The notes under the pieces: model-generated
Databases searched by the model: none
What the model was told of the DNA's origin: nothing
The model's input: only the letters and a program-made list of their open reading frames with translations
DNA from: Prochloron didemni P4-Papua_New_Guinea
Lineage (GTDB): Bacteria; Cyanobacteriota; Cyanobacteriia; Cyanobacteriales; Prochloraceae
Reading direction: 5' to 3'
DNA length: 35,626 bases
NCBI GenBank assembly: GCA_000252485.1
Contig: JH610772.1
Span: forward strand, 1-35,626
Position numbers and translations under genes: made by a program
In this document: positions 16,173-35,626 of the stretch, in pieces
Layout: the number at the start of each line of letters is the position of its first letter
How positions within the stretch are numbered: position 1 is the stretch's first letter

Positions 16173-17939
16173 TTAGAACTTAAAGGTAGTGCGCACCGCC
16201 CCTACAACAATGGTATCGTTATTTTCATTGTGTTCTGGATTGAGAAGGACGTAAAAACCTGGGGTAACGTATATATTCTTGTTGACTTTATATTTATAGA
16301 GAGCTTCGATCAGGAATGAGGTATCTTGATCTTCTCGACTTGAAGCATCATTTGCAGTTACTTTGGGGGGCATGCCAAATATAAGTCCTCCTACGTTTCC
16401 TTCTCCACCTAGATCTGGGAAAGCAACGTTGATTGACCAGTTTATGATTGTGGCACTGGGATCCTTTGGCGCATCAGTTATTTGACCATCTAGATTAGCA
16501 TTTGCCAACCCAAACCAACCACCAATATTAACACTCTCACTTGCTTTCCAGTTTCCAGCTATGCCAAAGCGATCTGATGAAGTGGCTACAGAAGTTTCTG
16601 TTGCTAAATTGATAAAAGGTTCTTTAGCAAATGCGCTACCTGCACTACCAGAAATATTAACCTGTCCATTTGGTTGATAGCTGTGCAAATAGGTGAAAGC
16701 TAAATCTATATCTTCTGTTGGGGCGTAGTCTAGCTGGAGCCCAGCACTATAACCGCCAGAGAAGAATCCGCTTGATTCACCGGGGTCAGAAGCCAAACCA
16801 TCATCTGCTAAATAGAGGGCAGATACTTTAAACTTGTCGTCAATTTTGTAATTAACCCCAACCCCAGCACCTTCGGAACCACGATATACCAATGGATTCC
16901 GTCGTCCAAATCGAGATAGTGCCCCCGTATCGCTGCTGGCTAAATAGGGATTTAAGACATTCAAAACATTATCAATGTCCAGTCCATTTGCTCCTACATG
17001 AATGCGGGTTTTATCTCCTACCGGGAAACGATACCACAAATCATCCAGTTCAACATTGTTTCCTCCCCCTGCGTCGTGACCCAAGCGAGCCATCTCCGTA
17101 CCTGTAGCGCTGCTTAAATTTACAAAGCTTCCTGCTTGGAGGCGGGTGCGGAGTAGATCCTTTCCAGTGAAGCTAGTCTGGAAATTTAAACGAACGCGAT
17201 CGCTGAAAGTGAGATTATCATCGAGATTAGCACCTATGGCAGGAGAACCACTTGCAACAGCTTGACGCTCTCCAAAAGCCCCAGCTGCGGTAAATAGGAC
17301 TGAGGCTTTTAATTTAGTAGTAGTAGAAAACTGTTGGTCTTCCAGCACTTCTACCCTTCTTTCCCCCTCATCTACCTGCGCGTCCAGAACTGCTAATTCT
17401 GCCTCAAACTCATCTACTAATCTTTGGATCTGTCTTAATTGTCCTGGATCTAGACCAATTCCCACACCATCTCCTCTCTCATCGCCAGTGAGTAGCCTAT
17501 CCTGAATCAACCTTTCTATAGATGTAATACATTTGTTGAGGGCAGCAGCAAATTGATAGCGGTTCAATCTCAGTTCTCCCCGGAAGGTTCTATCTTCAAA
17601 GCCGCTAACACACTGATATCTTTCGATTAAGTTTCTGATTGCCTCAAATGCCCAGTGATTGGGGTCCACGTCTCGCAACTGAAAGGCGCTATTTACTTGC
17701 GCCATGGGATCTTTTTCATCATCGGGAGTTTCTAAGGCATCTAATGCTTCAATTTCCCCGTATTGGTCGATTAGGTCTAAGAGTTGGCTATTAGATGAGC
17801 CTGTTTCAGCAGATGGGATTGCTGGGGGAAAATTGCTCTCTTCTATGGTCTGAGCTACTATTGGGGCTTGAGCCACTAAGATGGAAGCGCCGATAACTGC
17901 TGGAGTTGTTTTCCATAATTGCCAGAATAATTTGGTCAT
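16173..17939 (-). CDS. Outer-membrane porin, SLH + OprB-type barrel, copy A
   Basis: A 588-residue cyanobacterial porin of the SomA/SomB or 'iron uptake porin' group. A signal peptide (1-30, ending near APIVAQT) is followed by a variable acidic region, an SLH domain (about 83-145, LRDVDPNHWAFEAIRNLIERY and GFEDRTFRG) that holds peptidoglycan or its polymer, a short coiled coil (about 170-200), and a beta barrel to the end. It ends in Phe (VRTTFKF), as outer-membrane barrels usually do. Diffusion of small solutes or inorganic ions is inferred; specificity is unknown. The start has GAGGAGA upstream. A paralogue lies immediately upstream in the same orientation. Confidence 0.92.
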   Translation of the reverse strand: MTKLFWQLWKTTPAVIGASILVAQAPIVAQTIEESNFPPAIPSAETGSSNSQLLDLIDQYGEIEALDALETPDDEKDPMAQVNSAFQLRDVDPNHWAFEAIRNLIERYQCVSGFEDRTFRGELRLNRYQFAAALNKCITSIERLIQDRLLTGDERGDGVGIGLDPGQLRQIQRLVDEFEAELAVLDAQVDEGERRVEVLEDQQFSTTTKLKASVLFTAAGAFGERQAVASGSPAIGANLDDNLTFSDRVRLNFQTSFTGKDLLRTRLQAGSFVNLSSATGTEMARLGHDAGGGNNVELDDLWYRFPVGDKTRIHVGANGLDIDNVLNVLNPYLASSDTGALSRFGRRNPLVYRGSEGAGVGVNYKIDDKFKVSALYLADDGLASDPGESSGFFSGGYSAGLQLDYAPTEDIDLAFTYLHSYQPNGQVNISGSAGSAFAKEPFINLATETSVATSSDRFGIAGNWKASESVNIGGWFGLANANLDGQITDAPKDPSATIINWSINVAFPDLGGEGNVGGLIFGMPPKVTANDASSREDQDTSFLIEALYKYKVNKNIYVTPGFYVLLNPEHNENNDTIVVGAVRTTFKF

Positions 17940-18375
17940 CTTAATTTCTCCTCACACTAAGACTTAGATCGAGAATCGTTTAATCTCTAGTTATTTTATT
18001 CTATTCCTCTGGGTGCGGGCAAAAACAGTTGGATTTTAAATTTTCAATAGTAGGGTGCGTGCCGACACCACACCACACTACTTACCCGCGATTGGGAGGC
18101 AGCCCAGAGGGCTACCCCACGTTGATAAATACATATTCAACCCCAAACAACTACTTTTGGCCACACCCATTCCTCCAGCCCTGTTGATCAGGAACCGAGC
18201 CCTGCTGTTCTATCCTAATGGAAACTGTTGCTTATTTTATCACCTAGATTAGAAAAATTGGGTCGAGTAGGATGACTCAACCCAATTTTCTCAATTAACC
18301 AGCGATAGATGGTGTGGTGGGCAGTGCCGCACCCTACTGAAAAACTCTATCAACTGAGCACACCCAAAAATCCTT
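17940..18375. other. 436-bp spacer between porin genes with a MITE
   Basis: No gene. The MITE copy at 18011-18168 fills the middle, and a GGGCAGTGCCGCACCCTACT repeat lies at about 18318-18337. Whether copy A has its own promoter is unclear; I saw no convincing -35/-10 pair. Confidence 0.6.
18011..18168. mobile_element. 158-bp MITE, GGGTGYGG family
   Basis: Begins GGGTGCGGGCAAAAACAGTT and ends with AACTACTTTTGGCCACACCC, which are imperfect inverted repeats. Interior parts match 33730-33864, with about 23 extra bp (18050-18075 carry a GTAGGGTGCG-type insertion). Flanks ATTCCTCT (18003-18010) and ATTCCTCC (18169-18176) look like a degraded target duplication. Confidence 0.8.
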
Positions 18376-19998
18376 TTAGAACTTGAAGGTAGTTCTTATT
18401 GCTCCTACTACGATCGAATCGTTATCCTCATCGTTTTCTGGGTTGAGAATCACGTATGCACCAGGAGTGATGTAGATATTCTTGTTCACTTTGTATTTGT
18501 AGAGCGCTTCGATGTGGAAGGATGTGTTTGGATCTTCCAGGGAACTATCATCATGACTAGTCAACTTAGGAGGCATGCCGAAGATGAGACCGCCTACGTT
18601 ACCTTCGCCACCCAAATCTGGAAAAGCTAGATTGACAGACCAGGTGGTTATAGTAGCGCTATTGTCATTTTTTGCGTCTGTGGCATTTGCTAAACCGAAC
18701 CAACCACCGATATTGAAGCGATCGCTCACTTTGAAATTGGTGTTTACACCAAAGCGATTTGCTTCCGTACCTACGTCACCAAAAGGTCTTCTTGAATTTC
18801 CGCTGGTAGTGCTTCCCGATATATTTACATCAGTGTCCCCATTGACTGTACCAGTTTCGTAGGTGCGAAGGTAAGTTAAACTTAGATCCCACTTATCAGT
18901 TGGTTTGATGTCTAACTGAACTCCTGCGCTATAAGTACCGTTAAACAATCCTTCTCCGTCAGCAGGATCGGAAGCATCAGAGTTAGAAAGATAGAGAGCG
19001 GAGAGTTTGAATTGCTTGCTAAATTTATGCTGAATTGCTGCACCAGCTCCCCCTGGAGCGCGATATACCAAGGGATTTCGTCGTCCAAATCGAGATAGTG
19101 CCCCTGTATCGCTGCTGGCTAAGTAGGGATTTAAGACATTCAGAACATTATCCATGTCCAGTGCATTTGCTCCTACGTGAATGCGAGTTTTATCCCCAAC
19201 TGGGAAACGATACCACAAATCATTTACTTTAATATCGTTTCCTCCTCCTGCGTCGTGACCCAAACGAGTCGTATTGGTGCCGCCGAACCTTTCAAAGTTT
19301 CCAGCTTGCAGCCTCGTGCGGAGTAGATCTTTTCCAGTGAAGCTAGTCTGGAAGTTTAAACGAACGCGATCGGCTAAAATAATTTGATCATCAACTGTTG
19401 CACCTGGATCGCCACCGGAAGCGCCAGCCAAAGTAAAGAGTACTGAGGCTTTTAACTTAGTAGTAGTAGAAAACTGATGGTCTTCCAGGAAATCCACCCG
19501 TTCTTCCAAGTCATCTACCCGACTTCCCAGCACTGCTAATTCTGCTTCAAACTCAGATACTAGCCGTTGAATCCGACTGAGATCACCACGATCAATAACA
19601 GGACGACGACTTGGGCGACTGCTGTTTTCGTTGCTAGCAGCAATCAAACGTTCGATAGCTTGGATACAATCACTCAAAGTTACGGCAAATTCATAGCGAG
19701 TTACGGGATTATTGCCTCGGTAAGTCCCGTCCTCATAGCCGCGAATACAGCCATAACGTTCAATCAATTTCTTTAGTGCGTCATGGGCCCAATGTCCGGG
19801 AGAAACATCCCGCAACTGGTTGACATTGGTGACTTGACCCAGTTCCTCTTCGTAGCGGTTTAGCTGTTCTAAGAGTTGGCTGTTGGAACTTGCTGTTTCG
19901 CCCTCCTTGGGCATTGCTTGGGCCCCAGCAGAGCTATAAGCCATTAGGAATAAGGCTCCTAATAGGGCTGGGGATGTTTTTAACAATTTTGAGAACAT
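18376..19998 (-). CDS. Outer-membrane porin, SLH + OprB-type barrel, copy B
   Basis: A 540-residue paralogue of the downstream porin. The signal peptide (1-27) ends near SSAGAQA. The SLH domain (about 57-120) contains LRDVSPGHWAHDALKKLIERYGCIRGYEDGTYRG, given here in parts as LRDVSPGHWAHDAL and GYEDGTYRG. A coiled-coil linker and an OprB-type barrel follow, ending IRTTFKF with terminal Phe. Long blocks are identical to copy A, including RFPVGDKTRIHVGAN and PYLASSDTGALSRFGRRNP. The ATG at 19998 is preferred over an in-frame GTG at 20010 because that GTG is part of the ribosome-binding sequence GTGAGGAAA. A good promoter lies 42 bp upstream. Confidence 0.92.
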   Translation of the reverse strand: MFSKLLKTSPALLGALFLMAYSSAGAQAMPKEGETASSNSQLLEQLNRYEEELGQVTNVNQLRDVSPGHWAHDALKKLIERYGCIRGYEDGTYRGNNPVTRYEFAVTLSDCIQAIERLIAASNENSSRPSRRPVIDRGDLSRIQRLVSEFEAELAVLGSRVDDLEERVDFLEDHQFSTTTKLKASVLFTLAGASGGDPGATVDDQIILADRVRLNFQTSFTGKDLLRTRLQAGNFERFGGTNTTRLGHDAGGGNDIKVNDLWYRFPVGDKTRIHVGANALDMDNVLNVLNPYLASSDTGALSRFGRRNPLVYRAPGGAGAAIQHKFSKQFKLSALYLSNSDASDPADGEGLFNGTYSAGVQLDIKPTDKWDLSLTYLRTYETGTVNGDTDVNISGSTTSGNSRRPFGDVGTEANRFGVNTNFKVSDRFNIGGWFGLANATDAKNDNSATITTWSVNLAFPDLGGEGNVGGLIFGMPPKLTSHDDSSLEDPNTSFHIEALYKYKVNKNIYITPGAYVILNPENDEDNDSIVVGAIRTTFKF

Positions 19999-20039
19999 TT
20001 TTTTCCTCACACTTTAATGGCGACAGTTATTTTGTCAAC

Positions 20040-20077
20040 CTTGGGCAATTATAAAGAGAAAGGGCAGTTTTAGTCAA
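20040..20077 (-). promoter_or_regulatory. Promoter for porin copy B
   Basis: On the minus strand TTGACT (20072-20077) and TATAAT (20048-20053) are 18 bp apart. The predicted transcript would begin near 20040, giving a leader of about 42 nt. This is the best sigma-70-type match I found in the window. Confidence 0.65.
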
Positions 20078-20111
20078 CAAGGCATGATATTTCTCAACAA
20101 TTCTTAATCTT

Positions 20112-20130
20112 ATTGACAAAATTAGTCAAT
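20112..20130. promoter_or_regulatory. Palindrome upstream of porin promoter
   Basis: ATTGAC-AAAATTA-GTCAAT, a perfect 6-bp inverted repeat with 7-bp spacer, 35 bp upstream of the -35 box. Two more GTCAA motifs lie at about 20033-20037 and 20073-20077. It could be an operator; the regulator is unknown. Confidence 0.4.
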
Positions 20131-20376
20131 TGTGCTATCATTACCCCTCTTGTTCTTGTCTCCTCATGAAGCCAAAGTAAATCTATCTATTGTGATGTGG
20201 ATGCTCCATGTCTATTCAATCTACCCCTATAGATTAACTAAACTGTGTCTTGACTAGCTTAAGATTTTTGCGTTATTAATAGGTAATAGAAAGGTAATTG
20301 TTTGGTTAAATTAAAATGAAAATATAGGCTTTCTTGGTCGTGAGGTACGTATATATATACTTTTTAAACACACTCT

Positions 20377-20455
20377 TAGGCAGCCCAGAGGGCTACCCCA
20401 CGATTGACTTTCTACATATTCAGCCGGAAACAACTATTTTCTTTTGACCACACCC
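20377..20455. mobile_element. Truncated MITE, GGGTGYGG family
   Basis: Carries the shared core TAGGCAGCCCAGAGGGCTAC and the right end TTTTGACCACACCC, but the left terminal repeat is absent. Third member of the family in this window. Confidence 0.65.
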
Positions 20456-20690
20456 TACCTAATTAGGATTTACACAAATATAGCAGTTGACAGTTGATAG
20501 TTGACAGTTGATAGCTAATACAGCACAGCAGCGGTTGCTAATCCGTGTAGCAATCGTTCTAATATTGCTATATAGGGCTTCGCGCTATAATTGTTTGGTT
20601 AAATTACTACCCCCTATTTTTCAAGGATAATGGATTTTTGTTTCCAGAATTGGCTTTTAAAAAAAGCTATAATACGTAAAAGCTTTCCAG

Positions 20691-20784
20691 AATTGTTAAT
20701 TGTTAATTGTTAATTGTTAATTGTTAATTGTTAATTGTTAATTGTTAATTGTTAATTGTTAATTGTTAATTGTTAATTGTTAAT
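20691..20784. repeat. Heptanucleotide array (TTAATTG)13
   Basis: Thirteen or so perfect, uninterrupted TTAATTG units (94 bp), the longest array here. It starts exactly at the 3' end of phoU: the phoU TAA stop (complement of 20780-20782) is made from the first repeat unit. The perfection suggests recent expansion. Confidence 0.95.
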
Positions 20785-21427
20785 CTCTATGCCCATTGAC
20801 AATATAAGAAACTCTTTGAGCAATATTAGTGGCATGGTCTGCCATTCTTTCCAAATCTCTGATGGCTAGGGCTAAGAGTAAAATCGGTTCCACAGCCCCT
20901 TGGATATTTCGCTGCTGGGCCAAAGTTTGATAGATTTTAGTATAGGCATTATCTACTTCATCATCTAAATGCTTGATGGTTTCTCCTGCCGTTCCATCTA
21001 ATTCCCCTAAGGCTTTGAGACTTTTTCTCAACATTCCCTGAGCGAAGTCTGACATTTCTTCTATTTCTTTCATACAGGGATGGGGGGGGTAATTAAATAG
21101 CTTGACTGCCATCTCGGTCAAGTTTTGAGCGTAATCCCCAATCCTCTCTAAGTCTCGCACTAACTGCATGTAGGCGCTCAAAATGCGCAATTCTTTGGCT
21201 ACAGGTGCTTGAAGTGTAAGGATAGTGGCGCATTCTTCTTCGATTTGACGATAATATTGGTCAATACGCTTCTCTCGGGATTGGAATTCCTGGGCTAGTT
21301 CCAGTTTACCAGCAAATAAGCATTGATGAGAAAGGCGAAAGGAGTCTTCCACTAAGGCTCCCATGCGCAAAACATCTTGCTTTAATCGCCGTAGACACTT
21401 CTGAAAGTAAGTTGTTCGCTCTAGCAT
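20780..21427 (-). CDS. phoU: Phosphate signalling protein PhoU
   Basis: A 215-residue, all-helical PhoU with two repeats of a three-helix bundle. Metal-binding ERIGDYAQN (about 95-103) and ERMADHATN (about 193-201) are the hallmark motifs of the two halves. PhoU links the Pst transporter with the sensor kinase and keeps the Pho regulon off when phosphate is adequate. The gene is the last of sphR-sphS-phoU, all on the minus strand. A 160-bp gap separates it from sphS. The stop codon lies in a heptanucleotide array. Confidence 0.96.
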   Translation of the reverse strand: MLERTTYFQKCLRRLKQDVLRMGALVEDSFRLSHQCLFAGKLELAQEFQSREKRIDQYYRQIEEECATILTLQAPVAKELRILSAYMQLVRDLERIGDYAQNLTEMAVKLFNYPPHPCMKEIEEMSDFAQGMLRKSLKALGELDGTAGETIKHLDDEVDNAYTKIYQTLAQQRNIQGAVEPILLLALAIRDLERMADHATNIAQRVSYIVNGHRD

Positions 21428-21588
21428 TATATCAGGGAATAGGGAATAGAAAAAAGAAAATAATCAAGCTCTTATATCAAGTGATAGCAAAGAAAAGTTA
21501 ACTATTGATTAATGTTGATTGAGAAATGGAATAAACTATAAGTCTCGCCCAAAGACCCAAAGGAAAGAGAAAGATATTATTGATATAA

Positions 21589-22863
21589 TTATTCTAGAGG
21601 AAGAACAATTTTTAGCCATGCACCGCCAGTTTCAGGATGATTTTGAGCAGTAATAGAGCCCCCATGAGCTTTGATAATTTGTTGGACGATGGCCAGTCCT
21701 AAACCGCTGCCTCCATCGCGGGGTAATGTTTCTGGGTGGCTCAAGTCAGACGATTGTCTGGTTCTGGAGGGATCTCCTCGATAAAGGCGCTGGAAGATAT
21801 GGGGTAGGTCCGCAGCTGCAAAGCCAGAGCCAGAATCGATAATATTAATGGTCAGTTCTCCTGTTTTGGGTCTATCAGTTTCTACTTCCACCCGAATCTT
21901 GCCTCTGACAGGACTGTGTTTGATGCTATTATCCAGTAAGTTTAGCAATACTTGGGTGAGGCGATCGCGGTCTGCTTCCAGTTCTACACATTCATGCCCA
22001 AAATAATTTAGCTCTACTTCTTTTTGCTGGGCTAGGGGCTGAAGGGTTTCCCAGGCGGAAAAAATTAATTCTTCTATTTTAATAGACTGATACTGAAGCT
22101 GTTCTTGGGGATTTTCTTGCAGGCGACTGATGTCCAACCAGTTTTGTACCAGTTCGATCAGGCGCTGGGTTTCTTTTAACATCCGCTCTACCCAACTGCG
22201 TTCTGGATTTTGCAGGCGAGATTGCAAAGTTTCGGCTACTAGAGAGATAGAGGTTAGGGGAGTTCTCAGTTCGTGAGCGAGATAGGCTTTGGCGCGATGG
22301 CGGGATTGGGACAGTTCCACTAAAGGTTGCTGGTTCTCCAGAAAAACTCCTACTTCTTGCTGGGGGAGAGGAAAACAAGTGGCTTTTAAGAGGAGGGGTG
22401 TGCGCTTGCCATTGGTTTTGGGAGAGTAAAATTGCCATTCTATTACTTGGGTTTGTTGGGATTTGCGAGTTCGTTCGATGGCGCGATCGAGTTCGTAGGA
22501 CAGAACGAACTCTAGGAGTAAGCGCACTGTTCCCGATCGCCAACTGTCCATAGTTAACAGTTCTCGCGCCTTTTGATTGCACCAGATCAGTTGGTTGTCT
22601 TCATCTAGGAGCAAATAGCCAATGGGTGCTATTTCTAGAATCTGCTGCCAGGTTTGCAATTGTAATTGCAATTGTTCCCTGGTTTGAAAGATTCGGGAAA
22701 CCTCTCGCCGCACTAGAGATAGTACTGGCAAAGATGCTAATTCTGCGGTCTCATCAGACAAAAAATCTAGCATTCCCCTTAATTGGCGATCGGTCTGGTA
22801 CTGTTTCCAGAAGAAAAAACCAACTCCCAAGGATAGCCCCAGGATAAATTGGATGAAAGGCAT
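21589..22863 (-). CDS. sphS: Phosphate-sensing histidine kinase SphS (PhoR type)
   Basis: A 424-residue sensor kinase. A single N-terminal hydrophobic segment (1-18) should tether it to the membrane; a PAS-like domain spans about 70-180; the HisKA motif AYLAHELRTPLTS has phospho-acceptor His197; the ATPase domain shows NLLDN (308-312), DSGSGF (343-348) and GGSGLGLA (384-391). It is expected to phosphorylate SphR under phosphate limitation, as known for cyanobacterial SphS. The start ATG has no Shine-Dalgarno sequence; the upstream 48 bp are heptanucleotide repeats, so expression may depend on readthrough and ribosomes arriving from sphR. Confidence 0.93.
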   Translation of the reverse strand: MPFIQFILGLSLGVGFFFWKQYQTDRQLRGMLDFLSDETAELASLPVLSLVRREVSRIFQTREQLQLQLQTWQQILEIAPIGYLLLDEDNQLIWCNQKARELLTMDSWRSGTVRLLLEFVLSYELDRAIERTRKSQQTQVIEWQFYSPKTNGKRTPLLLKATCFPLPQQEVGVFLENQQPLVELSQSRHRAKAYLAHELRTPLTSISLVAETLQSRLQNPERSWVERMLKETQRLIELVQNWLDISRLQENPQEQLQYQSIKIEELIFSAWETLQPLAQQKEVELNYFGHECVELEADRDRLTQVLLNLLDNSIKHSPVRGKIRVEVETDRPKTGELTINIIDSGSGFAAADLPHIFQRLYRGDPSRTRQSSDLSHPETLPRDGGSGLGLAIVQQIIKAHGGSITAQNHPETGGAWLKIVLPLE

Positions 22864-22911
22864 TGGTTGTTTGTTATTTGTTTATTTGTTGTTTGTTATT
22901 TGTTTTTTGTT
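22864..22911. repeat. Heptanucleotide array between sphR and sphS
   Basis: TTGGTTG, TTTGTTA, TTTGTTT, TTTGTTG and similar units, partly irregular. It abuts the sphS start codon and occupies the position where a ribosome-binding site is expected. Confidence 0.75.
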
Positions 22912-22940
22912 CTCCTTTTAATGGCAATGACTAGACAAAT

Positions 22941-23696
22941 CTAGCCAAAACGATAACCAAAGCCTCGCACTGTAATCAGGTATTCTGGCTGAGAAGGGTC
23001 TCGCTCTAATTTTTCCCGCAACCAACGAATGTGGACATCTACAGTTTTGGTATCCCCCAAGAAATCAGCTCCCCAAACCTGTTGGATTAATTGCTCTCGA
23101 GACCAAACTCGACGAGGATAACTCATGAATAAGTCTAGTAAACGAAATTCTTTCGGGGAAAGATTGACTTCTTCTCCTCGAACTACTACCCGACACTCTT
23201 CCGGAAAGAGAATTACTTCTTGATACTCTCTTACGGAAGATTGTGGTAAAGAACTGAAGCGCTGGCGGCGGAGTAACGCGCGACAGCGAGCAACCAATTC
23301 TCGCATGCTAAAAGGTTTGGTGAGGTAATCGTCTGCTCCTACTTCTAAACCCAGAACTCGGTCCGTTTCGCTACCTTTGGCACTGAGAATTAAAATAGGG
23401 ATAATATTGCCTTGATAGCGCAGTAAACGACACACATCTAAACCGTTAACCTGGGGTAGCATTAGGTCCAAAACAATTAGTTCTAAGGGCTTGTGGTTCC
23501 CAGAGGATTCCGCATTTTGCAGCAATGTTAATGCTGCCCGTCCATCTGTAGCGGTAATGACTTCATAACCTTCCTCTTCTAAGGCTAAGACAATCATATC
23601 CCGAATTAAATCTTCATCTTCCACTACGAGAATGCGAGTGGTTCGGGTTAATTCCCTCTGGGAAGGACTCTGAGGTAGCAAGTCAAGCGTCGGCAT
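22941..23696 (-). CDS. sphR: Phosphate response regulator SphR (PhoB type)
   Basis: A 251-residue OmpR/PhoB-class regulator. The receiver domain (about 20-135) has acidic pocket EDED (26-29), phospho-acceptor Asp77 in VLDLMLP and Lys127 in TKPF. The winged-helix DNA-binding domain (about 158-250) includes LSPKEFRLLDLFM, TVDVHIRWLREKLE and the wing VRGFGYRFG. It activates phosphate-scavenging genes in cyanobacteria by binding Pho boxes. First gene of sphR-sphS-phoU; sphS starts 77 bp downstream. I saw no convincing Pho box immediately upstream. Confidence 0.94.
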   Translation of the reverse strand: MPTLDLLPQSPSQRELTRTTRILVVEDEDLIRDMIVLALEEEGYEVITATDGRAALTLLQNAESSGNHKPLELIVLDLMLPQVNGLDVCRLLRYQGNIIPILILSAKGSETDRVLGLEVGADDYLTKPFSMRELVARCRALLRRQRFSSLPQSSVREYQEVILFPEECRVVVRGEEVNLSPKEFRLLDLFMSYPRRVWSREQLIQQVWGADFLGDTKTVDVHIRWLREKLERDPSQPEYLITVRGFGYRFG

Positions 23697-28862: not shown

Positions 28863-29216
28863 TCAATTTTCGGATTCATATTTAGAAATAATGGTTTGGA
28901 TATCATCTGCTGTGATGTCAGCTTGTTGAGATTTTGAGTAAATCGTTAGTAAGATAATCGCTTTGGCTGTTTTGACATAGTAAATGAGTCTATAACCCCC
29001 ACTTTTTCCCTTTTGAATATCGCTATTTCTTACCCGTAACTTAAAAACTTCATAACCAATTTTCGGAATGCGATCTCCGAGTATTTCCCCTTGTTGAAGT
29101 TGTTGAATGACTGGTTGAATATCGTTGCCAATGTTGAGATATTGTTTTGCTAGTTTGTGTAGATTGCGTTGGAATCTTGGTGTTGCTTCGACTTGAATCA
29201 ATGGTAGTTCAGACAT
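28863..29216 (-). CDS. RelE/ParE superfamily toxin
   Basis: A 117-residue toxin of a type II pair. TPRFQRNLHKLAKQYLNIGNDI gives the N-terminal helices (shown as TPRFQRNLHKLAKQY), followed by the beta-sheet core VFKLRVRNSD and GKSGGYRLIYYVKTAKAIILL, ending YSKSQQADITADDI. These match RelE/HigB-like mRNA interferases. The ATG at 29216 is preferred over a TTG at 29225; it overlaps the antitoxin stop in ATGTCTGA, giving translational coupling. Activity on mRNA is inferred from the family. Confidence 0.87.
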   Translation of the reverse strand: MSELPLIQVEATPRFQRNLHKLAKQYLNIGNDIQPVIQQLQQGEILGDRIPKIGYEVFKLRVRNSDIQKGKSGGYRLIYYVKTAKAIILLTIYSKSQQADITADDIQTIISKYESEN

Positions 29217-29466
29217 TTTGCTCAATTCCTTCCCAAAGTTGAGAAACGGGAATTGTTTGTTCAGTCATGGCTTCATGCCAAGCTTGACGAAAATCGTTGA
29301 GTATTTCTTCTCTAGAAGAGATTAACTCATCGTCTTCGCCAATATCAACTGTTTTTGGAATAAGAACAATAACCTCTACACGACTATTTTCCGTTATATT
29401 TAATGGCCGATCTAAAGACAAGCTTCCCTGTTCATCAACGGTTGCCATTAATTTTATTGCTTTCAT
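29209..29466 (-). CDS. Antitoxin of the RelE/ParE-type pair
   Basis: An 85-residue protein directly upstream of the toxin. The N-terminus IKLMATVDEQGSLSLDRPL with VEVIVLIP suggests an AbrB/SpoVT-like beta DNA-binding start, and the C-terminal half (ILNDFRQAWHEAMTEQTIPV, WEGIEQ) is helical and suitable for toxin binding. Antitoxins of this sort usually also repress their own promoter. The 8-bp overlap with the toxin gene supports the role. No other antitoxin family was recognised. Confidence 0.82.
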   Translation of the reverse strand: MKAIKLMATVDEQGSLSLDRPLNITENSRVEVIVLIPKTVDIGEDDELISSREEILNDFRQAWHEAMTEQTIPVSQLWEGIEQNV

Positions 29467-29652: not shown

Positions 29653-30399
29653 CTAAATAAACTGTTTAACAACATAAGCTGTGGGACAAGGATAATCTAG
29701 AGCTTGAATTTGGATGTTCTTTTCCTCGAAAAACCGATCTGCTCCTTGTGCTTCCGACCATTGATGATAAGCATATTCATCAAATACCACCATCCCGCCA
29801 ATGGATACTCGATCCCAAAATGCATTTAAAGCGTGGTAGGTTGGGTTCTCTAAGTCCAGATCTAGATACAAGCAAGAAATTTTCAAACCCGGTCTTTTAG
29901 CAACAAACTCCGGAGCTGTTTGAGAAATATCACCTGAAATCAAATCGTAACTCTTCTCGTCAAAACCCCCATTAACGATCAGGTCTTGGACAAATCTTTC
30001 TGCTCCTTCTTCATGTTTGTAACCTCTGACCTCAAAAAGACCTTGCATGGAAGCCCGATCTTGTCCCGATAAAGAATTAAGCAAAGATTCCGTGTCAAAA
30101 TAGTCAAAGCCGATCGCTTTCTTCAAGGAGTTAGGAGCGAGAATCTTTTTAAGCTTCAGCCAAGTTAACATTCCGCTTCCTCGATAGACTCCTGCTTCTA
30201 CAATATCACCAGGTACGTTGATAATCTTGTTGAAGATTAAAGTTCTCGCGGTTAACTTGGCAAGTATTTTAGTGTCATCGCTAAAAATAAATTTTTCAAA
30301 AGCATCATAAATTTCGCTTTGTTGTTTAGTTCTAGTCTCTAAAGGGATGGATTGATTCAATTGGGATGATGGTTCGACTTGAGATTGAGCGTCATTCAT
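29653..30399 (-). CDS. TylF/macrocin O-methyltransferase-like protein
   Basis: A 248-residue SAM-dependent methyltransferase. The SAM-binding segment GDIVEAGVYRGSG is at 64-76; YLDLDLENPTYHALNAFWDR (179-198) and GGMVVFDEYAYHQW (201-214) match TylF-family metal ligands, with candidate Asp180, Asp182 and Asp207. TylF-type enzymes methylate sugar hydroxyls in antibiotics and surface glycans; here a sugar on a polysaccharide is the likely acceptor, inferred from the neighbouring sugar-phosphate genes. It is the last gene of the right-hand cluster, 78 bp after the HAD gene on the same strand. Confidence 0.85.
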   Translation of the reverse strand: MNDAQSQVEPSSQLNQSIPLETRTKQQSEIYDAFEKFIFSDDTKILAKLTARTLIFNKIINVPGDIVEAGVYRGSGMLTWLKLKKILAPNSLKKAIGFDYFDTESLLNSLSGQDRASMQGLFEVRGYKHEEGAERFVQDLIVNGGFDEKSYDLISGDISQTAPEFVAKRPGLKISCLYLDLDLENPTYHALNAFWDRVSIGGMVVFDEYAYHQWSEAQGADRFFEEKNIQIQALDYPCPTAYVVKQFI

Positions 30400-30477
30400 G
30401 AAAGTTTTTACCTATTTTTTGTTTAATGTGAAATTCTTGAATTTAACCTTTTTTGAGATAGATCTAGCTGCAGAATT

Positions 30478-30852
30478 TTAGAGATTGGAATCTTTGATAA
30501 CCTTAAGAGAATCCAATCCTTCATTCCTCAACAAATTGACGGCGTAACTGGTGAGAAGTCCGGAAGGCTTTTTATCGTTGATACAGATTCGTTCTCCGGT
30601 AGGTACGCCAAAAACTGCCATATTGTAGCGAAGTCCGGAGTTTGTTAGCAAAGCTAAAGTTGATTCGCGCATTTCTTCTTTGCGAGCGGTGAGCAAGATG
30701 ATAAAATCTTCTTCAGATATTAGCTCCCAAAACTCTTTAGCTCCGGGGAGTAACTTATCTCCATCTTGCTTGTAGCCATTATGCTCCAGGATCACCCCAT
30801 CAAGATCGATCAACCAGGTTTTGGGTAAATTGCTGAGAATTAGCTCTGTCAT
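30478..30852 (-). CDS. Small HAD-superfamily phosphatase
   Basis: A 124-residue HAD-type hydrolase without a large cap. Motif I is LIDLDGVI with Asp16 and Asp18, motif II is LLTAR with Thr55, and a late INDKKPSG segment (91-98) provides the acidic metal-binding Asp93. Such minimal HADs resemble those in capsule loci and the KdsC/GmhB group by size, but belong to neither by sequence as far as I can tell. The ATG at 30852 overlaps the stop of the upstream gene as ATGA, so the two proteins are translationally coupled and probably act in the same pathway. Confidence 0.82.
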   Translation of the reverse strand: MTELILSNLPKTWLIDLDGVILEHNGYKQDGDKLLPGAKEFWELISEEDFIILLTARKEEMRESTLALLTNSGLRYNMAVFGVPTGERICINDKKPSGLLTSYAVNLLRNEGLDSLKVIKDSNL

Positions 30853-32369
30853 GATAATGCTTTCTCCAACCACAACAGTCCATTATAGAAACTCGCTAAA
30901 ATTGAATCGTAATCGTCTTTGACATATCCAGATAAAGACAGCCAAATGAGTGCGTGTAGCAGACGAATCCCGGACATTTCATCTGGTTCGCGTTCTACAA
31001 ACATAGCTTCCAAATCTTGCCAACCATTGCTTTCTATCTGGAGATCCACTCGTTCTCCGGTAATTTTGAGCTGAAAGCAGCGACGATTAAACGGATCGTA
31101 GTCTCCAACAACGGAATAGTAGAGTTTTGCCCAATCGTACATGGGATCGCCGTAGAGCAGACTGGAACCAAAATAGCCTCGCGGATCGATTAACCAAGCT
31201 TGGTTTTGAGGGTCAACGAGCATGTTGGAAAAAGTGGGATCTCCATGAATTAACATGAACCGATCTACTTGGATCTCAGAAACCAGTTCCCAGAGTAAGT
31301 TCTGATATTGGGAATGAAAAGGATTGCGACAGAGAAAACCGTTTATTTCAATTGTGGGTTGATGGAAATTGGGAATCAGTGGAGCAACGCTGTTGACGCG
31401 ATCGCGGGTTTTCTGAAGGTAAACTTCTTCTAGCACTTTTGGATCGGCAGGTTTGACATCGCAATTATGAAGCCGATCTAGAAGCTGAAAAATGTCTCTG
31501 AGGATCTCCTCTTTTTGTTTTAAATCTATCTCCAACTCAAAGGGATGTACCCCCTCCAGGCGAGAGATGGTCATGGGATTGTCAGCAATCAAACTGGGTA
31601 AGCGATCGAACCCAAACGAATGAACCGTCCGATACCAATTTAGCTCCCGATCAATTAATTTCTGAAATTCTTGAACTCTTGCTTTTTTGATAACTCGTTC
31701 TGCCACAATTTCTACCGAGTTAAAGAAGCGACTGACGAGACTATTTTTTTGATACTCAGCTACGTTGTCCAGAGTTCCTAATTCGTAGGTGTCATCTAAG
31801 AACAACTCCTCAAACTTAATGGGTTGTTGAGAGAACCACCTGACGCATTCCCCTTCAGAAGGAATAGCTTGTAAAATAGATTTATTCGGAAAAACAAAAA
31901 AACCTGCTATTCCCCTTTCGTTGGAAGCTTCTTCTACACAAACTCCTGCTGAATTGTAAGACCAGCGACATTTAAAAGAACGACTCAGTCCGATCCAGTT
32001 TTTGTCATCAATTTCCCAGTCGGGAACTCGTTCCAACAGCAAATCGCACCAACTTAAGACAAAAGGAGTCTCTTCAGGAATGTAAGCCAATGCTTGGTCT
32101 ATCCCTGATATGGTTCCCTTTGTTTTTGCTTGAATTAACTGAACTGGAACTTGGGGAGGAAAAACTTCTAGGTATTTTGCTAAGACTTCATAGAGGTAAT
32201 CTCCAATAACTAGAAAGTTGGCAGAGGGAAAGCGATCGAATAAATGGTTTAATAAAGGTTGACCGCCAACAGAAAGCAAACACTTGGGTTTATTCCAGGT
32301 AAAATGCTTCAATCGACTTCCTTTCCCCCCTGCTTGAGCAATTACCCAGGGAATTTCACTTAGTTTCAT
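30849..32369 (-). CDS. Fused sugar nucleotidyltransferase and APH-type kinase
   Basis: A 506-residue two-domain enzyme. Residues 1-210 are a nucleotidyltransferase: AQAGGKGSRL (11-20), NKPKCLL (26-32) and SWCDLLL (106-112). Residues 230-500 are an aminoglycoside-phosphotransferase/choline-kinase-like kinase: HGDPTFSN (375-382) is the catalytic HxDxxxxN loop and IDPRG (394-398) supplies the metal Asp395; DPMYDWAKL follows. The fusion implies consecutive phosphorylation and nucleotide activation of one metabolite. Choline (LicA/LicC-like) is possible, but the adjacent KpsF-type isomerase and HAD phosphatase favour a sugar. The ATG at 32369 is preferred to the adjacent TTG. Confidence 0.82.
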   Translation of the reverse strand: MKLSEIPWVIAQAGGKGSRLKHFTWNKPKCLLSVGGQPLLNHLFDRFPSANFLVIGDYLYEVLAKYLEVFPPQVPVQLIQAKTKGTISGIDQALAYIPEETPFVLSWCDLLLERVPDWEIDDKNWIGLSRSFKCRWSYNSAGVCVEEASNERGIAGFFVFPNKSILQAIPSEGECVRWFSQQPIKFEELFLDDTYELGTLDNVAEYQKNSLVSRFFNSVEIVAERVIKKARVQEFQKLIDRELNWYRTVHSFGFDRLPSLIADNPMTISRLEGVHPFELEIDLKQKEEILRDIFQLLDRLHNCDVKPADPKVLEEVYLQKTRDRVNSVAPLIPNFHQPTIEINGFLCRNPFHSQYQNLLWELVSEIQVDRFMLIHGDPTFSNMLVDPQNQAWLIDPRGYFGSSLLYGDPMYDWAKLYYSVVGDYDPFNRRCFQLKITGERVDLQIESNGWQDLEAMFVEREPDEMSGIRLLHALIWLSLSGYVKDDYDSILASFYNGLLWLEKALS

Positions 32370-32372
32370 CAA

Positions 32373-32673
32373 TCAAGTCCCATAATTTCAACACAATTAA
32401 CAATTAACAATTAACAATTAATACCAAATCCGCTTTAGAGAGTAGAGGAAAAACTAGCCTGTAACCCAGACATTGTCTGGAACTTTTTAACCCGAATTTG
32501 GTAGAACAACTAGTAGTATATAGCGTTTCTTAGACTCATGAGGTACATTTATAATACCAGCTTATGAACGTGTTTAGTATTCAGTGAGAGCAACCGCTAG
32601 GTTGCTGTATAACTATCAACTGTCCACTATCAACTGTCAACTGCTATATTTATTTTTTTAGTTCACTATTTTT
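32373..32673. other. 301-bp gap between nucleotidyltransferase and kpsF-type genes
   Basis: No gene. A heptanucleotide array (32394-32421) is followed by AT-rich DNA, a small hairpin GCAACCGCTAGGTTGC (32588-32603) and a run of ACTATCAACTGTC units (32611-32643). The gap could hold a promoter, so single-operon transcription of the cluster is not certain. Confidence 0.5.
32394..32421. repeat. Heptanucleotide array (CAATTAA)4
   Basis: Four CAATTAA units a short distance upstream of the nucleotidyltransferase-kinase start. Same unit as at 6843-6870. Confidence 0.85.
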
Positions 32674-33636
32674 TCAACCAGAAACAGAAGCAAGCTGATT
32701 CACATGGACAATTCCCACTGGAATTTTATCTTCTACCACGAAAACATTGGGAACCATCTTTTCTTTAAAGAATTTTATTAGCTCTGACATGGTTAGATCC
32801 GAAGAAATGGAGAAAGGGGAAGGGGTCATATATTCGCTAACTGGTTCTTCTAAAGAGACTTGAGATTCCAAACATCGACGGAGATCTCCATCGGTAAAAA
32901 TGCCCATATACTGATTTCTTTTATTAAGAATACCTACGCATCCCAAGCTTTTTGAATTCATTTCAATAATAGCATCTTTGATGGAAGTTTCCAAACCAAT
33001 TAATGGCATTCGATTCCCCGTATACATGAAATTTTTCACAGGAACCAGTAGAGTTCCTAAATTACCTCCGGGATGGAATTTCTTAAAATCATCAGCGGTA
33101 AAACCTTTTAATGACATTACAGCCACCACCAGCCCATCCCCAATGGCAAGTTGGCAGGTAGTTGAGGTTGTGGGAGCTAAACCGTTAATACAGGCTTCAG
33201 GAACATCGGGAATTTGCAACACCACATCTGCAAAATGAGCGAGGGAACTGGATCGGTTTTTCGTAACCAAAATAACTGGTATTTTTTGCTGGGAGGCATA
33301 TTGTACTATATCTAATAGTTCGGATGTCTGACCTGAAGCTGAGAGTACTATCAGTAGATCTCTGGTATCTAGTATCCCTAAATCTCCATGACTTGCTTCG
33401 GTGGGATGAACGAAAACGGAAGGCATTCCTGTAGAGGTAAACGAAGCAGCAATCTTTTGAGCAATGTATCCGCTTTTACCCACTCCAGAAATCACAACTT
33501 TTCCCTTACAGTCTCGAATTATCAAGACAGCTTGAGACCAAGATTCGTCGATAGTTTTTCTCAATTCTGAGAGTGCTTGAGACTCTTTCTCGATTATTTG
33601 GTCAATTTGTAATTGGATATCTTTATGACTTAACAT
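32674..33636 (-). CDS. kpsF: KpsF/KdsD-type sugar-phosphate isomerase (SIS + 2 CBS)
   Basis: A 320-residue protein matching arabinose-5-phosphate isomerases, which interconvert ribulose-5-phosphate and arabinose-5-phosphate. The SIS domain (about 35-175) has GVGKSG (51-56), HPTEASHGDLG (77-87), LSASGQTSELL (98-108) and FHPGGNLG (187-194), with conserved histidines at 77, 83 and 188. Two CBS domains (about 203-260 and 270-318) complete the standard architecture. In other bacteria the product feeds KDO synthesis; no KdsA or KdsB is visible here. Its neighbours are a kinase-nucleotidyltransferase fusion and a phosphatase, which suggests a different use. No strong Shine-Dalgarno sequence. Confidence 0.9.
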   Translation of the reverse strand: MLSHKDIQLQIDQIIEKESQALSELRKTIDESWSQAVLIIRDCKGKVVISGVGKSGYIAQKIAASFTSTGMPSVFVHPTEASHGDLGILDTRDLLIVLSASGQTSELLDIVQYASQQKIPVILVTKNRSSSLAHFADVVLQIPDVPEACINGLAPTTSTTCQLAIGDGLVVAVMSLKGFTADDFKKFHPGGNLGTLLVPVKNFMYTGNRMPLIGLETSIKDAIIEMNSKSLGCVGILNKRNQYMGIFTDGDLRRCLESQVSLEEPVSEYMTPSPFSISSDLTMSELIKFFKEKMVPNVFVVEDKIPVGIVHVNQLASVSG

Positions 33637-33729
33637 TTCAAGTTTTACCCATTTTTTATTGCTCGTGAAAAGCTACAATCACTATCATATCCTTATTTTG
33701 TTAAAAGCTTGAATCGAGGGGTCAACAAA

Positions 33730-33864
33730 GGGTGCGGTCAAAAACAGTTGAATTTTATATTCTCAATAGTCGTGGCTTACCCGCGATTGGTAGGCAGCCC
33801 AGAGGGCTACCCCACGATTGATAAATAGATATTCAGCCCCAAACAACTACTTTTGACCACACCC
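33730..33864. mobile_element. 135-bp MITE with perfect 9-bp target duplication
   Basis: Terminal inverted repeats GGGTGCGGTCAAAAACAGTT at the left and, inverted, GGGTGTGGTCAAAAGTAGTT at the right. GTCAACAAA directly flanks both sides (33721-33729 and 33865-33873). The interior includes TAGGCAGCCCAGAGGGCTAC, itself a hairpin. No coding capacity. The right target copy ends one base before the stop codon of the TPR gene. Confidence 0.92.
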
Positions 33865-33874
33865 GTCAACAAAT

Positions 33875-35626
33875 CTAAAATAACTCAACAATCCGCTCTA
33901 TTTGTTCTTGATTTGGTAGATTATCGACGGATACAAAATATAAATTAAAGTTGTCATTGATAATACTTCCGTCAATCACTGCTTTTCCTGGTATCTTGCC
34001 AAAACAATTATCATGTGCCTTTGTTGGCTGGATGCACAGTTTAGTAACTTGAGGACTTGCAAAAGCAATTAGGTCGCACAAACCGCTTCTAATACCAGCA
34101 AACGCTCCGCAAAGTTCTACGAACGGGATCACCTCATCCAGTGGAAGATCTACCATTTTCACGTATTGCCGATAGCGAGCTTCAACAATTCTTAACAAAT
34201 AGCTCAGTTTGTTTTCTCCTTGCTTTGTATTAATTACTGGAGTCACATTCCTCTCAACTAGCTGATTAATAATTTTTTGCCAGAATGGAATCAGTTTTGC
34301 ATTGCTTCCTGTTAATGAATTCATATAATTAGAATGAGGTGCTATGAGTATTGCCTTTCCTCTAGACAGATGGAGATTTTCAAACTTATCCATCGCATTG
34401 GTCAAAGACCTCTTCTCTATGGCCGGTTTACCCATTGTATCCTCGTTCAACTCTATATTGATTCCCAAACTAGCTGCTATGCCCCGTTCGTAAATAGATT
34501 TATCCGTAATGTAAGTCAATCCCTGCTTTTGAGAATCGTTGTTCATCATTCTGGGTATTCCTGGCATTACAGGTAGTTCACCGAGAGAAACTCGATCCTC
34601 TTTGATTAACCTTTCAATTTCCTGCTGTGTTTCCCCATCGATTGAAAAATGGCTTGCCACATACTGGGGTACGATAGGGTCTAAAAACAGGGGAGCTTGA
34701 GTTATTGGGGAGTAGCTATCAGGATAAAAAACAATTGCTTTTTTGCCGTGTTGAATGCACAATGGCTTTATAAGTGCTAACTGCTTGCAAGTGTCTCCCA
34801 CATTAATGTTATGCATGTATAAAATTAGATATTGTTTATAGTCTATATTTCTTTTTCCTAAAATTTCTCTTTTAATGAATTCAATAGTTTGAGAGCTTTG
34901 GATAATTGATTTTATTTCTCGATCTGTCGGTTCTTCTTTATCCGATAAATCACTCTTATAAATGCATTCTATGATATTGACTTTATCATTCAATAGATTT
35001 GATTTTCGGTAGTATGAAATTGCGCCATTCCAATCTTTTCTTTTTTCCAGAATTTTTCCCATGTCCGATAAAGCCATTGCATTTTCTGGCTCTAAATCCA
35101 AAGCTTTTTTCACATAAACTTCTGCTTTTTTGAACTGATTTAATTTTCTGGCCACAATAGAAATATTGAGAAGAATTTGGATGTCACCAGAATTATTTCG
35201 AGCGAAATTTTCTAAAATTTCTAGAGCATTCTCAAGATATTTCCTTGGAATTATATATTTAGAACTTAAATAAAAATGTTCTATGAGAATATGATTTGGC
35301 TCTTTGTTTAAGATTTGCTGGAGACGTTCAAAAGCCTCCTCAATATAACCTAGTTGTATGAGTTGGCGGTAATGATGGGCATGTTCTGGAGCTAATTCGA
35401 TGGCTTTTTTATACGCAGTAACAGCTTCTTCCAAGTTTCCTTGCTGATGGTGAGTCGCGCCCAAACAACTATAAATACCTGGATGTTTTGGTTCCAAGTT
35501 TTTTGCAGTTTCGTAGGCGGCAAGTGCTTCATCTAGTTTTTTTTGTTTTTTAAGGCATCTCCCAGATGTTTGTGAACTGGGAAAGAGTTTTTGACATTTA
35601 GTTCGATGGCTTTTCGGTAGGCTGCG
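33875..35626 (-). CDS. TPR protein with glycosyltransferase-like C-terminus; partial, frameshifted
   Basis: The gene enters from the right edge, so its start is missing. Tetratricopeptide repeats (NLEEAVTAYKKAIELAPEHA, KAEVYVKKALDLEPENAMAL, WNGAISYYRKS) are followed by a domain of about 340 residues. Its second half (GKAILIAPHSNYMNSLTGS, FAGIRSGLCDLIAFA) recalls GT-B glycosyltransferases such as the heptosyltransferase (GT9) family, tentatively. The 540-residue frame opens at a TTG (35497), but TPR coding continues to the right edge in another frame (AYRKAIELNVKNSFPVHKHLGDAL). The frames meet at an A8 run (T8 at 35537-35544); one extra A would join them. Sequencing error, slippage or inactivation are all possible. 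Confidence 0.75.
   Translation of the reverse strand, partial: RSLPKSHRTKCQKLFPSSQTSGRCLKKQKKLDEALAAYETAKNLEPKHPGIYSCLGATHHQQGNLEEAVTAYKKAIELAPEHAHHYRQLIQLGYIEEAFERLQQILNKEPNHILIEHFYLSSKYIIPRKYLENALEILENFARNNSGDIQILLNISIVARKLNQFKKAEVYVKKALDLEPENAMALSDMGKILEKRKDWNGAISYYRKSNLLNDKVNIIECIYKSDLSDKEEPTDREIKSIIQSSQTIEFIKREILGKRNIDYKQYLILYMHNINVGDTCKQLALIKPLCIQHGKKAIVFYPDSYSPITQAPLFLDPIVPQYVASHFSIDGETQQEIERLIKEDRVSLGELPVMPGIPRMMNNDSQKQGLTYITDKSIYERGIAASLGINIELNEDTMGKPAIEKRSLTNAMDKFENLHLSRGKAILIAPHSNYMNSLTGSNAKLIPFWQKIINQLVERNVTPVINTKQGENKLSYLLRIVEARYRQYVKMVDLPLDEVIPFVELCGAFAGIRSGLCDLIAFASPQVTKLCIQPTKAHDNCFGKIPGKAVIDGSIINDNFNLYFVSVDNLPNQEQIERIVELF

Follow-up and report, generated by a model that had tools for sequence, protein, structure and literature searches.

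A conserved isomerase, kinase-nucleotidyltransferase and phosphatase cassette in Prochloron didemni that probably makes nucleotide-activated D-arabinose

A 35,626-nucleotide stretch of the cyanobacterium Prochloron didemni P4-Papua_New_Guinea (the window; JH610772.1) encodes a cassette of a KpsF/GutQ-type isomerase with SIS and CBS domains, a fusion of a nucleotidyltransferase to an APH-fold kinase, and a minimal HAD phosphatase. In our view, the cassette likely produces D-arabinose in nucleotide-activated form, as a donor for a surface glycan. The gene content and its conserved linkage, the retained catalytic residues, the lack of synthesis of 3-deoxy-D-manno-oct-2-ulosonic acid (KDO) in the host and homology to a phage arabinose module are the observations that carry this reading. 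The window is contig C307 in full, and its source assembly is cyanobacterial and 98.8% complete. A previous interpretation made without database searches (the sequence-only reading) had listed five genes on one strand, i.e., those of the cassette plus a TylF-type methyltransferase and a protein with TPR and glycosyltransferase (GT)-like parts. Open reading frames (ORFs) and Pfam matches bear out all five, and all are on the minus strand (Table 1).

We suggest that the SIS-CBS protein would convert ribulose-5-phosphate (Ru5P) to arabinose-5-phosphate (A5P), that the HAD phosphatase and the APH-fold kinase would together shift the phosphate from C5 to C1, and that the nucleotidyltransferase half of the fusion would join arabinose-1-phosphate to a nucleotide, giving nucleoside diphosphate (NDP)-D-arabinose. 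The nearby GT-B-like transferase would probably consume this donor, and the TylF enzyme may methylate the product. If the phosphatase acts first, A5P would be converted to arabinose and then to arabinose-1-phosphate; alternatively, A5P would pass through arabinose-1,5-bisphosphate to arabinose-1-phosphate. By analogy, we slightly prefer the phosphatase-first order because the known APH-fold anomeric kinases (AmgK, NahK and methylthioribose kinase) act on sugars that lack a distal phosphate and because MupP-AmgK-MurU works phosphatase-first. The conversion of pentose-5-phosphate to NDP-pentose put forward by the sequence-only reading is largely supported, but the 1,5-bisphosphate that it placed in the series belongs to only one of two orders, of which phosphatase-first is at least as likely. 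The individual activities in this scheme are what we infer from the observations listed above, and so are the sequence of steps, the identity of the nucleotide, the anomeric and ring form of the sugar and the acceptor.

Comparison with other genomes shows that the gene set is conserved. The host has a second copy of the cassette on another contig, in which the fusion, SIS and HAD proteins are 82%, 84% and 79% identical to those of the window. Of the 386 genomes sampled from the phylum, 41 matched a fusion profile at E 1e-20; after exclusion of four genomes in which only the kinase part was distantly matched (G125, G133, G259 and G437), 37 fusion carriers were left (fragmentary or split in G290 and G136), nearly all of which fall in one family of 2-Mb genomes, f47. 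Five Firmicutes also encode the fusion (∼43% identity), and related gene sets are present in gut bacteria. The HAD gene is close by in 39 of 42 further fusion loci that we read, while the SIS gene is linked to 15 of 43 fusions and lies upstream with CBS domains, downstream of the HAD gene or, as a single-domain protein, between the fusion and the HAD gene. Because this layout differs between lineages, the data suggest that the isomerase was recruited to the fusion repeatedly. As many genomes contain a closely similar set, the co-location of the genes is not due to chance. Conserved linkage, on which the sequence-only reading had staked its proposal, is found by the neighbourhood search across phyla and in phages.

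The isomerase is a predicted D-arabinose-5-phosphate isomerase based on two types of sequence comparison. First, it has a SIS domain (PF01380, 1.5e-25) and CBS domains (2.8e-14) and scores 287.5 bits against the TIGR00393 kpsF model, i.e., above the cut-off of 203.7, in agreement with the arabinose-5-phosphate class proposed earlier. Second, K59, H88, E111, E152 and H193, which we take to be the active-site residues of KdsD, correspond to K54, H83, E106, E147 and H188 of the window protein in a mapping via a PDB alignment, and the linked SIS proteins retain them, with the E152 position in Firmicutes depending on the alignment. These data also bear on the possibility that the cassette activates another aldose (either a different pentose or a heptose from sedoheptulose-7-phosphate) and that the SIS protein has drifted from A5P. 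An HddC-like heptose enzyme is among the relatives of the nucleotidyltransferase domain, and one clade swaps the SIS protein for a phosphomannose isomerase (PMI)-like protein and a second epimerase (see below), indicating that the fusion family may take other aldose phosphates. However, the window isomerase reaches only 25.6 bits against the GmhA model (cut-off 209), retains the KdsD residues and has phage homologues that accompany arabinosylated DNA. Altogether, we consider activation of another aldose unlikely.

The fusion matches NTP_transf_3 (1e-9, residues 14-111) and APH (3.5e-9, residues 225-426), and PF01636 was detected in five of six fusion members. The motifs QAGGKG.RL...T.NKPK, W.DL, HGD.TFSN and IDPRGYFG are invariant in the cyanobacterial and Firmicute copies. 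The nearest solved relatives of the nucleotidyltransferase domain are RfbF, HddC-like proteins and LicC; searches of the PDB with the fusion (phmmer) and with a kinase-domain profile gave no useful match. All HAD members match HAD models weakly, with family matches below the Pfam cut-offs, and they share invariant DxDG, T and ND motifs. AlphaFold models were of low quality (predicted local distance difference test scores of 55 for the fusion and 60.5 for the HAD protein) and were not used. Both domain folds of the fusion are found in LicC and LicA, and one Firmicute copy has a LicD-family gene nearby, in favour of a route in which choline, ethanolamine or another alcohol is the substrate of the fusion and the isomerase is a bystander. 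Such a role is nevertheless very improbable because dedicated pentose-phosphate isomerases and epimerases adjoin the fusion, recurring in several layouts; moreover, the phosphatase is nearly constant, and no choline-kinase family or model matched the fusion.

Most characterised KpsF/KdsD enzymes serve KDO synthesis, and the CBS pair suggests regulation. The isomerase could, therefore, function in KDO synthesis or in regulation by A5P, separately from the fusion pathway. However, KDO synthesis is excluded as a role of the host isomerase, as KdsA and KdsB are missing from the host; the best matches in its genome reach 125 bits (cut-off 314) and 22 bits (cut-off 155), respectively. The absence of both genes that had been noted for the window thus extends to the whole genome, which leaves no complete KDO pathway elsewhere, a counter-explanation that the sequence-only reading had raised. 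The host has only two KpsF genes, and both are cassette copies beside fusions. Among the oxygenic genomes in the phylum sample, 34 have KpsF, 32 have KdsA and 31 have both; the three with KpsF but without KdsA (G000, G376 and G317) are exactly the three fusion carriers. Similarly, a linked SIS gene is present in all 9 loci from KDO-less hosts compared to 6 of 33 loci from KDO-making f47 hosts (Fisher p 1e-5, from lineages that are not independent and with the KDO status of Firmicutes judged on KdsB alone). The natural reading is that KDO-making hosts need no linked isomerase because they already produce A5P for KDO. Several KDO-making f47 genomes hold a linked SIS gene as well as a separate KDO-type KpsF, and the two types are in separate clades. 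Because the linkage also recurs in Firmicutes and phages, we find it highly doubtful that the isomerase acts apart from the fusion.

The module is tied to arabinose because its phage homologues go with arabinose-containing DNA (PMC6024577, PMC13390438). Among phages, most of them T4-like, 352 records contain a relative of the fusion, which is nearly full length in 344. The gene order of phage RB69, i.e., SIS (p055), fusion (p053/052) and HAD (p051), is the same as that in the window, and the p053/052 split in the record is reported to reflect a sequencing error (PMC6024577). The window fusion aligns with that of an Enterobacter T4-like phage (28% over 97%, E 5e-37), and homology between the window and RB69-type SIS proteins has a probability of 99.7%. 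Counts of the fusion and of the p051-type HAD protein are identical in the main phage genera, and the SIS protein is present in 272 records. The phage set closest to the window is that of cyanophage S-SRM01, in which SIS, fusion and HAD genes (fusion 37%, HAD 51% identity) lie inside a glycan cluster. Arabinose is present in RB69 DNA (PMC6024577, PMC13390438); the modification was later assigned as 5-arabinosyl-deoxycytidine, and as of June 2026, its full pathway was uncharacterised and the arabinose precursor unclear (PMC13390438). Thomas et al. proposed in 2018 that the RB69 homologues make UDP-arabinose, noted distant bacterial relatives and described a Butyrivibrio protein that combines the same fusion with a SIS domain (PMC6024577). 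The pathway that had been called unassigned is, therefore, not wholly so.

The homology and shared order with RB69 would also fit a cassette for arabinosylation of host DNA, or a phage remnant. However, no relatives of the RB69 thymidylate-synthase-like protein, putative arabinosyltransferase or thymidylate kinase were found in any cellular cassette locus examined (the search covered the loci and not the rest of the host genome), and the neighbours are glycan-type and methyltransferase genes, which makes a DNA-directed or remnant cassette scarcely credible. Given that none of the cellular loci examined has these DNA-modification partners, a glycan is the probable target of the cassette in cells. 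TPR families match the ORF upstream of the isomerase gene, and 31 cassette loci encode relatives that are detected by a profile based on its C-terminal part, making this recurring GT-B-like family a candidate transferase on sequence grounds. The GT-like part has no significant solved relative, the best being the heptosyltransferase TibC (E 0.21, nonsignificant). The TylF gene also adjoins the cassette, at 81-84% identity, in G376 and on a Planktothrix plasmid but not in the second host copy.

Other observations weigh against the D-arabinose reading or limit it. The identity of the pentose and of the nucleotide cannot be fixed from sequence alone. The HAD gene is not beside the fusion in three Firmicutes; two of them have it elsewhere in the genome, and no copy was detected in the third, which is a metagenome-assembled genome (MAG). 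The Planktothrix plasmid copy lacks a SIS gene at its locus. The RB69 HAD protein is not detectably homologous to that of the window (hhalign E 0.12 and 0.003, with no significant alignment). Finally, 304 bases separate the SIS gene from the fusion gene in the window, and 1.7 kb with an opposite-strand ORF separate them in the second host copy. Because of these gaps, the linkage is that of a neighbourhood rather than of a strict operon, and we rejected a strict single-operon organisation given the gaps and the intervening ORF. The fusion stop overlaps the HAD start at the junction TCATGA, and the ATGA coupling of these two genes that had been read from the sequence holds. Promoter and terminator scans gave nothing above chance.

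One fusion clade (support 100/100, nine rows) has a different partner. A class-I PMI-like gene and a ribulose-phosphate 3-epimerase (Rpe) gene directly follow the HAD gene in eight of the nine loci, and the contig of the ninth ends too soon. The eight loci in which the SIS gene is replaced (L094-L099, L101 and L102) are in f47 genomes, each of which has two Rpe genes compared to one in the other f47 genomes tested. The linked Rpe and PMI-like proteins score below the equivalog cut-offs, and we assign their functions in this variant provisionally. This replacement again points to a pentulose-5-phosphate, and the obvious series would be from Ru5P via xylulose-5-phosphate to lyxose-5-phosphate, by analogy with the conversion of fructose-6-phosphate to mannose-6-phosphate. 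We tentatively raise the possibility that the fusion-HAD core is a general activator of aldopentose-5-phosphates for which the partner isomerase picks the sugar, such that a SIS partner would lead to NDP-D-arabinose and a PMI-like/epimerase partner to another NDP-pentose, probably NDP-D-lyxose. No solved carbohydrate structure contains lyxofuranose (PMC11127046), and we found no route to NDP-lyxose in the open-licence papers searched.

Some loci have additional features. On the Planktothrix agardhii NIES-204 plasmid (L063, 1-19518), the fusion, HAD and TylF genes lie amid genes annotated as amidinotransferase, sulfotransferase, carbamoyltransferase, sterol-desaturase-like and dioxygenase, a cluster reminiscent of those for guanidinium natural products. 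In a Lachnospiraceae MAG (L034, 7026-8543), Rpe-like and IspD/ribitol-phosphate cytidylyltransferase-like genes are upstream of the cassette. Relatives on proteobacterial plasmids of E. coli, Citrobacter and Legionella, which pair a HAD protein with a related kinase, were set aside, being 25-34% identical over part of the protein and having, in E. coli and Citrobacter, a kinase whose N-terminal domain is degenerate. These genes are in capsule-type loci (L065, 6006-10441, of an E. coli plasmid; also L064 and L066); a separate nucleotidyltransferase is present in the E. coli and Legionella loci, and the E. coli plasmid kinase gene occurs in 4 of 5426 E. coli genomes. Two f47 loci (L103 and L104) encode distant fusion-like proteins (24-25%), and the HAD protein beside that of L104 resembles the Legionella/E. 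coli plasmid type and not the window type. In the window, a gene for a RelE/ParE-like toxin and a short gene upstream of it probably form a toxin-antitoxin pair next to the cassette (28863-29466, minus strand). Farther away, two SLH-OprB porin genes lie near genes for PhoU, a histidine kinase and a response regulator, a Pho-type set (16173-23696, minus strand).

Table 1. Features of the cassette and its flanking genes in the window
Feature	Position	Strand	Remarks
KpsF/GutQ-type SIS-CBS isomerase, predicted D-arabinose-5-phosphate isomerase	32674..33636	minus	320 aa
Nucleotidyltransferase-APH-kinase fusion	30849..32369	minus	506 aa from ATG 32369 (likely start)
Nucleotidyltransferase domain of fusion	31770..32369	minus	residues 1-200, approximate
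APH-fold kinase domain of fusion	30852..31757	minus	residues 205-506, approximate
Minimal HAD phosphatase	30478..30852	minus	124 aa from ATG 30852; ATGA-coupled to fusion
TylF-type methyltransferase, accessory	29653..30399	minus	PF05711 1e-10
TPR protein with GT-B-like C-terminal part, candidate transferase	33875..35626	minus	TPR families; truncated by contig end

We found no description of the cellular cassette across phyla, of its complementarity to KDO synthesis or of the epimerase/PMI-like variant in the open-licence literature, and no bacterial NDP-arabinose route appears among the prokaryotic D-arabinose sources listed in a 2024 paper (PMC11301363). If correct, our model would explain why KDO-less bacteria retain an arabinose-5-phosphate isomerase. 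The model would, moreover, hint at the chemistry by which phage DNA is arabinosylated, for which the precursor was described as unclear in June 2026 (PMC13390438).

Among known systems, the RB69-type module of Mosigvirus and other T4-like phages shares the SIS-fusion-HAD order and homologous fusion and SIS proteins with the cellular cassette and is also a proposed supplier of activated arabinose (PMC6024577). However, the phage HAD protein is of another type, the window SIS protein has CBS domains, and the phage set feeds DNA modification with a thymidylate-synthase-like enzyme that is absent near the cellular cassettes. The GmhA-HddA-GmhB-HddC pathway to GDP-heptose follows the same logic of isomerase, C1 kinase, HAD phosphatase and nucleotidyltransferase; however, HddA is a GHMP kinase while the window kinase has an APH fold, and the window isomerase is of the KpsF rather than the GmhA type. 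AmgK has an APH fold. In MupP-AmgK-MurU, which recycles UDP-N-acetylmuramic acid, a HAD phosphatase, an anomeric kinase and a nucleotidyltransferase act in that order (PMC5371407). This pathway differs in its sugar, and the window protein scores 22.1 bits against the MurU model, below the cut-off of 250. The fused kinase-pyrophosphorylase of trypanosomatids belongs to another family. The trypanosomatid route from Ru5P via A5P and D-arabinose to GDP-D-arabinose likewise leads from A5P to arabinose to NDP-arabinose and has its kinase and pyrophosphorylase in one chain (arabino/fucokinase-pyrophosphorylase), except that the proposed isomerase is GFAT and the phosphatase is unidentified (PMC11301363). 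Lastly, phosphoribosyl pyrophosphate (PRPP)/polyprenyl-phosphate systems also place pentoses, including arabinose, in bacterial glycans, but with PRPP and polyprenyl-linked donors and no NDP-pentose (PMC11127046). Compared to these described pentofuranose routes via PRPP and lipid carriers, the cassette would, if our reading is correct, provide bacteria with a direct nucleotide-sugar route to D-arabinose.

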